In this document: piece after piece, positions 3,236-56,640 of the stretch
Layout: the number at the start of each line of letters is the position of its first letter
Numbering within the stretch: position 1 is the first letter of the stretch
Assembly (NCBI RefSeq): GCF_020832205.1
Contig: NZ_JAFIFD010000040.1
Span: 1 to 64,000 of the forward strand
DNA: 64,000 nt
Source: Exiguobacterium sp.
GTDB taxonomy: Bacteria; Bacillota; Bacilli; Exiguobacteriales; Exiguobacteriaceae
Direction of reading: 5' to 3'
The notes under the pieces: generated by a model
Databases searched by the model: none
Told to the model about the DNA's origin: nothing
Seen by the model: the letters and a program-made list of their open reading frames with translations, nothing else
Program-made: the position numbers and the translations under genes

Positions 3236-4042
3236 TCACGATTGTTCGAGGTGACGCAAAATGATACCAGCCGTCTCTTCGACCGCTTTGTTCGTCACGT
3301 CGATCACTTCGCATCCGATTCGTTCGTAAATGCCTCGCGCGTATTCGAGCTCCCGATTGATGCGCTCGAGCTGGGCATAGTCGGCCTCTGGTTTCAGACC
3401 GAGCGATTTCAACCGCTCCATCCGAATCGAAATCAACTTGTCCGGCGAGATGATCAAGCCGACGCAACGTTCAGGCGGCAGTTCGAACAACTCTTCCGGC
3501 GGACGTGACTCGGGCACGAGCGGCACGTTGGCGACTTTGTACCGTTTCAAAGCCAAGTATTGGGACAAAGGGGTCTTCGAGGTGCGCGAGACACCGACGA
3601 GCACGATGTCGGCTTTCTTTAAACCGCGCGGGTCGCGACCGTCGTCGTATTTGACCGCGAATTCCATCGCCTCGATCTTCCGAAAATAATCGTCGTCGAG
3701 ACGATAGATGAGGCCTGGTTTTTCACGAGGGCTCTCTTGCAGCTCGCCCGAGAGGACGTCGAGCAAGTTGCCGAGCAAGTCGACCGTCTTCACCCCGTGC
3801 TCGCGGCCAAGGGCAGTGATCAACGCCCGGTGTTCCTCATTGACGAGCGTAAAAGCGATGACTGCTCCTTGTGCTCTCGCTTGCGTGACGACATCTTGAA
3901 TCGTCTGTTCATCCTCGACGAACGGGATGCGCAACGTCTCGATGGCGTTTTCATGGAATTGAATGCTCGCGGCCCGGACGACGAGCTCACACGTTTCCCC
4001 GACCGAGTCACTCACGACAAACACGAGTTGTTTTTTCGTCAA
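3236..4042 (-). CDS. yqfL: Pyruvate,water/orthophosphate dikinase regulatory protein (DUF299, YqfL)
   Basis: Bifunctional ADP-dependent Ser/Thr kinase and phosphorylase of the PSRP/DUF299 family, which switches PEP-synthesising dikinases off and on. A P-loop-like motif is visible (GVSRTSKTPLSQYLA), along with the family start LVFVVSDSVGETCELV. The open frame reaches 4072, but a GAGGAGG site sits eight bases before the TTG at 4042, giving MTKKQLVFVVSDS and 268 residues. The ribosome site lies inside the end of ccpN, so translation is probably coupled. In B. subtilis yqfL also follows ccpN, and it affects the gluconeogenic function of CcpN. Confidence 0.92.
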   Translation of the reverse strand: MTKKQLVFVVSDSVGETCELVVRAASIQFHENAIETLRIPFVEDEQTIQDVVTQARAQGAVIAFTLVNEEHRALITALGREHGVKTVDLLGNLLDVLSGELQESPREKPGLIYRLDDDYFRKIEAMEFAVKYDDGRDPRGLKKADIVLVGVSRTSKTPLSQYLALKRYKVANVPLVPESRPPEELFELPPERCVGLIISPDKLISIRMERLKSLGLKPEADYAQLERINRELEYARGIYERIGCEVIDVTNKAVEETAGIILRHLEQS

Positions 4043-7683: not shown

Positions 7684-7905
7684 CGACAAAAAACGCCCCT
7701 ATGTGCCATGCACATAGGGACGGGATTACCCGCGGTTCCACCCTACTTGCCTCAACTTCGAGGCCACTCTTTGGATTGTGGGCGCTCCAGAATCGCCATT
7801 CACTTTTCACATGGCGCTCGGCTCCCACCTGCCCGAACTCGCTGAACCCATCGTTAAAAAGTTACTCATTTCCTTCATTGCGCACGCTATTTCATTTGTC
7901 TAATC
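7684..7905 (-). promoter_or_regulatory. T-box leader (glycine) of glyQS
   Basis: The minus strand carries the T-box core AGGGTGGAACCGCGGG (complement 7728-7744), then a terminator hairpin (7697-7719, CCCTATGTG paired with CACATAGGG) and a T-run. A GGC glycine codon (complement 7795-7797) lies in the expected specifier-loop context, at the same distance from a CTGGAG element as the UUC codon in the pheS T-box of this window. Binding of uncharged tRNA-Gly would stabilise the antiterminator and allow glyQS transcription. Confidence 0.93.
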
Positions 7906-51622: not shown

Positions 51623-51662
51623 ATGAGCCGACAAATATTTTCAAATAAATTTTCAGAAAATA

Positions 51663-51691
51663 TTGATTATTGAAAATTGTCGTGTTACTCT
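51663..51691 (+). promoter_or_regulatory. Putative promoter of the PTS IIC-like leader transcript
   Basis: TTGATT and TACTCT are 17 bp apart, upstream of the leader peptide. A small CTAAGA/TCTTAG hairpin begins at the putative start site. Confidence 0.5.
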
Positions 51692-51726
51692 AAGACAAAT
51701 CTTAGCAAACGGAGGAGCGAGCAACC

Positions 51727-51780
51727 ATGTATACACACACACAACACTGCCTGCTGATTATTATTCGACGAAGGGACTGA
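51727..51780 (+). CDS. Putative 17-residue leader peptide
   Basis: A short reading frame encoding MYTHTQHCLLIIIRRRD, preceded by a GGAGGA site ten bases from its ATG. Runs of three Ile and three Arg codons lie just before the stop. It precedes a terminator hairpin and the PTS IIC-like gene, as in amino-acid or ribosome-stalling attenuators. Translation is unproven. Confidence 0.5.
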   Translation: MYTHTQHCLLIIIRRRD

Positions 51781-51837
51781 AAATCGACTCGATGACCGAG
51801 ACGAATTTTTGGGCCCTTGTTTCGATGGTTTCGGACG

Positions 51838-51888
51838 AGGCGCTCACCGTTTGTATCGTGCGCCTATCCCATCCGGATAGGTTTTTTT
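51838..51888 (+). terminator. Leader terminator with overlapping antiterminator arm
   Basis: CCTATCC (51863-51869) pairs with GGATAGG (51875-51881), followed by seven T: a strong intrinsic terminator 30 bases before the next gene. AGGCGC (51838-51843) can instead pair with GCGCCT (51860-51865), which takes the first three bases of the terminator stem. The rest of the 350-base gap holds the promoter and leader peptide described separately. Confidence 0.82.
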
Positions 51889-51918
51889 ATTGGACATTAG
51901 ACAGAGGAGATGATGGAA

Positions 51919-52932
51919 GTGAAACAGTACGCAATGGATCGAATGATTAAAATATCAGCCGGGATGGCAAGCGCCGTCCTCGTCACACTAGGGGTCGGGC
52001 TCCTCATCGAGACGATTGGTAAAATGGCAGGACTCGACATGCTCGTCACGATCGGGCAAGTCGCCAAGTCGTTGCTCGCCCCGGCGCTCGGTGCCGGTGT
52101 CGCCTATCAGCTCGGCGGCAACACCCTTATTTTATTCAGTTCGATGATTGCGGCGACCGTCGGTGGGGCCGCGCTCCAACCGACAGAAAGCGGACTCGTC
52201 CTCGTCCCTGGTCAACCGATCAGTGCGTTGATCGCAGCGGCTGCGGCCGTCTGGTTAGGCAAACGTGTTCTCGGCAAGACGAAGTTTGACATGATGGTCG
52301 TACCCGTCACGGCCGTTCTTGGCGGCGGCATTGTCGGCGTCGGGGCCGCTGCCGTGACGACACCGCTCATCAATTCGATCAGCGCCAGCATCACGGCTTC
52401 GGTCAACACGTCACCGGTCGCCACGTCACTTGTCATCGCACTCGTTTTCAGCGTCATGCTCATGTCACCGGCGTCCTCGGCCGCGCTCGCGATCGCGCTC
52501 CAACTTGATCCGGTCGCAAGTGCCGCCGCGCTCATCGGCTGTACGGCTCAATTTGTCGGCTTCACGCTCATGGCATATCGTCAGACGGACCCGGGCGGCT
52601 TGGTCGCATCGTTCTTCGTGACACCGAAAGTCCAGTTCCCGAACGTCGTCAAAAACCCGCGCGTCGTCATGCCGCCGTTCATCGCCGCCATGATCAGCGC
52701 CCCGATCGCGACGCTCTGGTTCTCGCTCGAAGTGCCGTATGAGATCGCCGGTCTCGGGCTCAACTCGATGATCGCCCCGCTCAACATCTTGGCGGCGCAA
52801 GGCGCCGAGGCGTTCGCGATCTTCGTCGGCACAGGCGTCGTGCTTCCCGCGGTCATTACGTTCCTTCTTTATAAAGTGACTTGCCTCGTCGGATGGACGA
52901 AGTTCGGTGACTTAGCACTCGAAGTACAATAA
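51919..52932 (+). CDS. Stand-alone PTS IIC-like (PfoR-type) membrane protein
   Basis: About 337 residues with eight to ten predicted membrane helices, rich in Ala, Gly and Val. It resembles PTS_EIIC_2/PfoR-like proteins, which look like sugar-PTS permease subunits but lack IIA and IIB partners; function and substrate are unknown. No PTS IIA or IIB gene is nearby. Start choice is uncertain: a GTG at 51919 lies nine bases after AGAGGAG, while ATGs at 51910 and 51913 are very close to that site. Expression is likely controlled by the attenuator-like leader. Confidence 0.8.
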   Translation: MKQYAMDRMIKISAGMASAVLVTLGVGLLIETIGKMAGLDMLVTIGQVAKSLLAPALGAGVAYQLGGNTLILFSSMIAATVGGAALQPTESGLVLVPGQPISALIAAAAAVWLGKRVLGKTKFDMMVVPVTAVLGGGIVGVGAAAVTTPLINSISASITASVNTSPVATSLVIALVFSVMLMSPASSAALAIALQLDPVASAAALIGCTAQFVGFTLMAYRQTDPGGLVASFFVTPKVQFPNVVKNPRVVMPPFIAAMISAPIATLWFSLEVPYEIAGLGLNSMIAPLNILAAQGAEAFAIFVGTGVVLPAVITFLLYKVTCLVGWTKFGDLALEVQ

Positions 52933-56400: not shown

Positions 56401-56640
56401 AAAAAAAGTCCCTTCAGTCAATGACTGAAGGGACGAATAATCGCGGTACCACCCTACTTGGCCGTGAGGCCCACTTAAGAGGCATCGTTATCGAGATGCC
56501 AACCCGGTGTTGTCTCCAACACGACTCCAGAGTGAATTCGGCGCCGACCGAGGCATCGGCTCACAATCACGGCCCATGCTCCCTGTACTCGTTCGGTAGT
56601 TCGCGTACTATGCTCCTTCAACGTCTATACTATTACGTTC
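56401..56640 (-). promoter_or_regulatory. T-box leader (phenylalanine) of pheST
   Basis: The minus strand carries the T-box core AGGGTGGTACCGCGATT (complement 56438-56454) and a terminator stem (GTCCCTTCAGTCA at 56407-56419 with its complement) followed by T7. A UUC codon (complement 56534-56536) in GAATTCACTCTGGAG fits the phenylalanine specifier loop. Confidence 0.95.

Follow-up and report, generated by a model that had tools for sequence, protein, structure and literature searches.

A putative branched-chain amino acid attenuator with a CodY-like box, common to an orphan EIIC-like gene and brnQ in Exiguobacterium

How is a stand-alone EIIC-like gene controlled when a short reading frame and a terminator lie between it and its promoter, and what might that control tell us about its substrate? 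The question is raised by a leader upstream of a PTS_EIIC_2 (PF13303) gene in a 64,000-nt stretch of an Exiguobacterium sp. genome (contig NZ_JAFIFD010000040.1, positions 1 to 64,000; hereafter the window). The leader sequence presents, in this order, a CodY box, a promoter, a Shine-Dalgarno (SD) sequence, a 17-codon upstream open reading frame (uORF), a series of RNA arms and an intrinsic terminator (Table 1). Judging from sequence comparison, the region very probably has two layers of control, CodY and ribosome-mediated attenuation by branched-chain amino acids (BCAA), over the gene of an EIIC-fold membrane protein that most likely serves BCAA supply. A literature search returned nothing direct on this leader in Exiguobacterium or on PF13303 function.

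Table 1. Leader and target gene in the window.
Feature	Position	Strand	Remarks
Attenuator leader	51648-51888		5' of the PTS_EIIC_2 gene
CodY-box-like operator AATTTTCAGAAAATA	51648-51662	.	adjoins the -35 box; one mismatch against AATTTTCNGAAAATT
Promoter TTGATT - 17 nt - TACTCT, extended -10 TGn	51663-51691	+	from sequence; -35 at 51663-51668, -10 at 51686-51691
SD of the uORF, GGAGG	51711-51715	+	from sequence; kept in leaders
uORF MYTHTQHCLLIIIRRRD, then stop; 17 codons	51727-51780	+	frame, SD and stop kept in 31/31 Exiguobacterium leaders
Control codons Leu-Leu-Ile-Ile(-Ile)	51751-51765	+	L-I-I invariant
Arm 2 AAGGGACTGAAAATCG	51771-51786	+	contains the uORF stop; pairs with arm 3; covariation
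Arm 3 CGAATTTTTGGGCCCTT	51802-51818	+	partner is arm 2 or arm 4
Arm 4 GAGGCGCTCA	51837-51846	+	partner is arm 3 or arm 5 (AGGCGC/GCGCCT antiterminator)
Antiterminator halves AGGCGC, GCGCCT	51838-51843, 51860-51865		second half overlaps the terminator 5' arm
Arm 5 GCGCCTATCC	51860-51869	+	antiterminator 3' arm and terminator 5' arm
Terminator CCTATCC/GGATAGG plus T7	51863-51888
Arm 6 and U-tract, GGATAGG TTTTTTT	51875-51888	+	intrinsic terminator
Stand-alone PTS_EIIC_2 (PF13303) membrane protein, 340 aa	51910-52932	+	Pfam E 1.6e-85

The leader is present in every Exiguobacterium orthologue locus that we fetched. Alignment of the upstream regions of 30 loci shows conservation of the box, promoter, uORF and arms, and variation of the spacers; the leader fold is stronger than expected by chance (z = -2.8). 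The promoter keeps its -35 box and the first positions of its -10 box in the 30 loci. A consensus promoter scan of the window did not list it, and its assignment rests on sequence and conservation. A sequence-only reading of this DNA had listed promoter-like boxes, a ribosome site, a small 5' hairpin, a 17-residue frame before the terminator, and AGGCGC/GCGCCT arms overlapping that terminator. All of these parts are real, and the frame and its stop are conserved; the hairpin (CTAAGACAAATCTTAG) is present but not conserved, and the CodY box and arms 2 and 3 had been overlooked, so the switch as listed there was incomplete.

The CodY-like box is kept in all orthologue leaders of the alignment, and a genome-wide site scan ranks it within the top six. 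The other high-ranking sites flank genes for oligopeptide uptake, a proline permease, glutamate synthase, an aminopeptidase and a protease, all named by reading translations without a family scan. The genome encodes CodY and the promoter has a AATTTTCWGAAAATT-type box close by, as expected of a member of the CodY regulon; the site is a predicted one. The operator match and the presence of CodY suggest the first layer of control: BCAA-activated CodY would repress the promoter when BCAA are plentiful.

The second layer would depend on the uORF. Its SD, start, frame and stop are conserved in the Exiguobacterium leaders, and its translation is predicted. A 12-nt insertion in four loci (L027-L030) is in frame, and a change of TGA to TAA in L011 preserves the stop. 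The Exiguobacterium peptides consist of a variable N-terminus, a core of Leu-Ile-Ile-(Ile/Leu), further variable residues and a terminal Arg-Asp. Leu-Ile-Ile is invariant; the Arg codons of the window's peptide are not, since relatives have Leu, Cys, Ser, Thr, Met or Tyr codons there, and only the last of the three is conserved, its AGG forming part of the arm 2 RNA helix. The sequence-only reading had left Ile or Arg as the sensed amino acid: comparison points to Ile together with Leu, and Arg is not a conserved signal. Among the 29 SD-preceded short ORFs of the window, only this uORF has at least four consecutive Leu/Ile/Val codons. The peptide could alternatively arrest the ribosome in response to a small molecule or drug instead of sensing codon starvation, as many Exiguobacterium peptides end in IIIRLRD or IIIRRRD and those of Sporolactobacillus in LRLRT, resembling the +x+ motifs of macrolide arrest. 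However, the other Exiguobacterium subgroup (LIILCSRD, LIILCMRD) lacks +x+ while retaining Leu-Ile-Ile, the common leader carries LIVI in some of its copies before brnQ, and the target is not a resistance gene, all of which makes an arrest peptide improbable.

Folding predicts four alternative helices from the five arms, each arm having one partner at a time: a 2:3 protector (AAGGGACTGAAAATCG / CGAATTTTTGGGCCCTT), a 3:4 anti-antiterminator (TGGGCCCTT / GAGGCGCTCA), a 4:5 antiterminator (AGGCGC / GCGCCT) and a 5:6 terminator (CCTATCC / GGATAGG). For each codon, we folded the RNA that a ribosome at that place would leave uncovered on its 3' side, ending it short of arm 6 to represent ongoing transcription. 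Across 28 distinct leaders, the antiterminator has a mean probability of 0.98-0.99 with Leu, Ile or Ile in the A site (codons -8 to -6, counted from the stop); the mean falls to 0.58 for the next codon (-5) and to 0.1-0.2 over codons -4 to -2. For the window's own leader the corresponding values are 0.91-0.97 and 0.17, with <0.06 from there up to the stop. The invariant Leu-Ile-Ile therefore comprises the last codons at which stalling is predicted to give read-through. For a ribosome positioned at the stop codon, the average in the orthologues is 0.44, with a value close to 0 in the window's leader; folding with no ribosome gives a mixed prediction. By computation, antiterminator and terminator are thus exclusive and the stall position decides between them, as in an attenuator.

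Folding has its limits here. At equilibrium, a stalled ribosome does not keep the terminator from prevailing in the window's leader (probability about 0.99), so the model requires co-transcriptional trapping, a matter of timing. When the complete leader is folded to equilibrium with the ribosome footprint masked, no switch appears, because pairings of the 5' UTR and the strong terminator dominate, and RNAalifold alone recovered only 3:4 and 5:6. For one sequence, 6-11 of 300 shuffled spacers were equally switch-like, which makes the switch-like folding of a single sequence only moderately unusual. The case for the predicted switch rests on conservation and covariation, not on single-sequence folding.

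We built a covariance model from the EIIC leaders and scanned 38 Exiguobacteriaceae genomes, obtaining 47 matches: EIIC leaders in 35 of the genomes, 11 second copies, and one extra match in G007 that on inspection is a bare terminator. Weak matches of the model inspected in G328 and G255, outside these 47, are not leaders of the EIIC type either. The paired arms covary to a degree reached by none of 500 shuffles. We counted 23 two-sided compensatory cells in the 3:4 helix, a number that 0 of 500 shuffles reach, and in the 4:5 helix a C-G pair becomes U-A in the copies before brnQ. Covariation is weak in the EIIC leaders alone and becomes clear once the brnQ leaders are included. The alignment was fitted to a model of 2:3 and 5:6, with 3:4 and 4:5 absent, and is therefore biased towards the former two helices. 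CodY could also be the sole regulator, the leader terminator acting as a constitutive brake; the good CodY box speaks for this, as do some brnQ genes and two EIIC paralogues without an attenuator, but the covarying alternative arms and the conserved BCAA codons would be left unexplained, and we give it slightly less credence than the arrest peptide.

Conservation, covariation and folding together suggest how BCAA attenuation would proceed from the core peptide. In a shortage of charged tRNA-Ile or tRNA-Leu, a ribosome would stall on the core with arm 2 uncovered, and arms 2 and 3 would pair; arm 4 would then be available to arm 5, the 5:6 terminator could not close, and transcription would read through. 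If BCAA are plentiful, the ribosome would reach the stop codon and cover arm 2, 3:4 and 5:6 would pair, and transcription would terminate before the EIIC-like gene. We infer that stalling on Ile/Leu codons controls termination and that CodY represses initiation.

Is this a known regulatory RNA? No Rfam family reaches its threshold at the leader, and no known riboswitch matches, in agreement with the sequence-only reading, which could not assign a class. The best sub-threshold match is rli60 (RF02414), with 23.9 bits (E 0.39) against a gathering score of 60, and membership of that family was rejected on this score; nor did the Rli60 model match loci L150 or L105. The T-box (RF00230) was also rejected: the genome has 18 T-boxes, none of them here. 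Two T-box leaders lie elsewhere in the window, 5' of pheS (56426-56630, minus strand) and of glycyl-tRNA synthetase genes (7713-7887, minus strand); they score 72 and 88 bits against a gathering score of 93, which is why a default Rfam scan of the window lists none. If the leader were instead a new class of ligand-binding riboswitch and the uORF incidental, the strong conservation of the RNA and the missing riboswitch match would fit. Yet frame, SD and stop survive the 12-nt insertion and the stop codon change, and no conserved unpaired binding core is seen, the loops being variable and the conservation falling on the arms and the 3' half of the uORF; we hold such a riboswitch to be less likely again than control by CodY alone. 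Least likely of all is arginine-responsive attenuation through the three Arg codons of the window's peptide, as relatives substitute those codons, the one invariant Arg contributes AGG to arm 2, and the fold scan predicts termination, not read-through, for stalls at Arg codons. Of the two options in the sequence-only reading, the ligand-based one thus found no Rfam family over threshold, its nearest match being itself a BCAA attenuator, and the peptide-based one is borne out by the conserved frame and stop, the invariant Leu-Ile-Ile at the stall limit and the covarying alternative hairpins. An unconserved uORF combined with a riboswitch match, named there as counter-evidence, did not occur.

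BCAA attenuation of this kind has precedents. In trp/ilv-type enterobacterial attenuators, a stalled ribosome decides between antiterminator and terminator; the chain in the window has an extra alternative helix (3:4). In Listeria, reporters and mutants established that Rli60 attenuates ilv-leu in response to BCAA through the ribosome (PMC5864092). It resembles the window's leader in CodY control, a BCAA-rich leader peptide and, by folding, the arm chain 2:3, 3:4, 4:5, 5:6; it differs in its peptide and in its target, ilv-leu as against a transporter-like gene. Applied to rli60 from four Listeria genomes, the stall scan predicts that a ribosome halted on Ile-Thr-Ile-Leu permits read-through and that one close to the stop leads to termination; the helices are of the same four kinds (2:3/4:5 against 3:4/5:6), and the terminator is likewise preferred at equilibrium. 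Arm 3 of the Sporolactobacillus leaders (TTTGAGTCC) is identical in Listeria rli60. Given the sub-threshold Rfam score and the failure of a Sporolactobacillus-built model to find rli60, we claim for the two leaders only a shared predicted architecture, not common descent. The ilvD gene of Staphylococcus aureus also combines CodY with a BCAA-codon leader peptide, rich in leucine, and a terminator, but its target is biosynthetic and its published antiterminator pairs with the U-tract, a different RNA design (PMC5794164).

Orthologues of the EIIC protein are found in Exiguobacterium (95-99% identity to the window's protein in relatives of that name), Sporolactobacillus (57-66%) and Listeria (44-45%). 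The leader is found in at least 12 of 14 Sporolactobacillus loci, with a uORF ending in GLIRIILRLRT; in S. putidus it was identified by model match, the uORF start lying beyond the viewed stretch. In Sporolactobacillus shoreicorticis (L152, upstream of 4001) unrelated sequence replaces the attenuator region, perhaps through an insertion or an assembly join. The Sporolactobacillus-built model detects Exiguobacterium leaders in whole genomes (best E 4e-8). Applied to 398 genomes from the class, the first model gave convincing leaders only in Exiguobacteriaceae and Sporolactobacillus; the second returned a few short and weak matches elsewhere. The Listeria orthologues have no such leader upstream; Listeria has rli60 on ilvD. 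No attenuator was seen upstream of the paralogues C27 and C43 or of distant homologues. The C27 paralogue (L032) has a CodY-like box AATTTTCAGATTATT at 3580-3594, and TTTTTCAGAAAATT is found in a relative (L035); these boxes hint that amino acids may control that paralogue as well. A tRNA gene takes the place of the window's pheT in the second Exiguobacterium subgroup, 3' of the EIIC gene and on the other strand (L027, 2618-2690, minus; L026, 2615-2687, minus).

The second copies of the leader bear on what the system serves. In 11 genomes a copy with a uORF lies directly upstream of brnQ, which encodes a BCAA:Na+ symporter, and every such copy has this position; positions come from all 11 genomes, and sequences were examined for eight. 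Their uORFs include MTHATLIQERLIVIKSRD and MTNVDMTLNQRLIILCTRD, each followed by a stop, and some end in RLIVIKSRD, with Leu-Ile-Val-Ile; these copies also have CodY-like boxes. Here the attenuator would control transport of the very amino acids it is predicted to sense. The brnQ gene of the window's own genome (G000:C12:59375-60640, minus strand, L123) carries no attenuator, and relatives vary in the presence of one; a CodY-like box, TTGTCAGAAAATTTAG, closely follows the promoter of this brnQ. What comparison shows is that the orphan EIIC-like gene and brnQ share a conserved BCAA uORF that looks translated, together with alternative hairpins that covary.

Gene content gives this arrangement a physiological setting. 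The ilvC gene (ketol-acid reductoisomerase, PF01450) was found in none of the 38 Exiguobacteriaceae genomes, with a positive control in 14 of 14 genomes, and brnQ in all 38. By gene content, Exiguobacteriaceae lack the standard BCAA synthesis route and presumably cannot make BCAA; uptake therefore appears to be their source, which fits a BCAA attenuator placed before uptake genes. In Sporolactobacillus the picture varies, two of the three genomes searched having ilvC.

What, then, does the target do? Its Pfam assignment is firm (287.5 bits against a cut-off of 28.9), and an AlphaFold2 model (pLDDT 81, with 31 homologues) matches the glucose-superfamily PTS EIIC fold over its full length, well above unrelated entries (MalT Z 18.6, PtsG 17.7). 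The likeness to PtsG, MalT and ChbC is one of predicted fold (Z 14-18.6 over about 310 residues), at about 12-14% identity, and a sequence search with the target matched no solved structure. Pfam shows no EIIB domain in the protein, and there is no obvious EIIA or EIIB among the adjacent genes. Sugar EIICs use invariant residues of the His and Glu type; unlike them, the target has neither among its (nearly) invariant residues. The predicted fold by itself assigns no substrate, and we found no assigned substrate for PTS_EIIC_2 proteins in the literature. We take PfoR to be a member of PF13303. PfoR continues to give its name to the annotation of one PTS_EIIC_2 protein (PMC13227979); the part once proposed for PfoR in controlling perfringolysin has been contradicted (PMC4448169). 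Since the same leader is copied before brnQ and ilvC is missing, the target most likely serves BCAA acquisition. In its simplest form this would be import of BCAA or a close relative, a speculative role for the EIIC-like protein; it may instead import a related compound or serve another part of BCAA metabolism. We tentatively suggest, at about even odds or slightly less, that the Exiguobacterium/Sporolactobacillus PTS_EIIC_2 clade is an isoleucine/leucine importer that works without phosphorylation, has the EIIC fold and is regulated together with brnQ by one attenuator module.

The kind of mechanism is already known; new are its transporter targets and a connection between BCAA supply and an orphan EIIC family. 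The BCAA attenuators of Listeria and Staphylococcus stand on synthesis genes; this one would stand on uptake genes, in a lineage that lacks ilvC. The covariance model of the leader can be used for finding further examples, and a BCAA attenuator common to the EIIC gene and brnQ would provide PTS_EIIC_2 with a testable substrate class.
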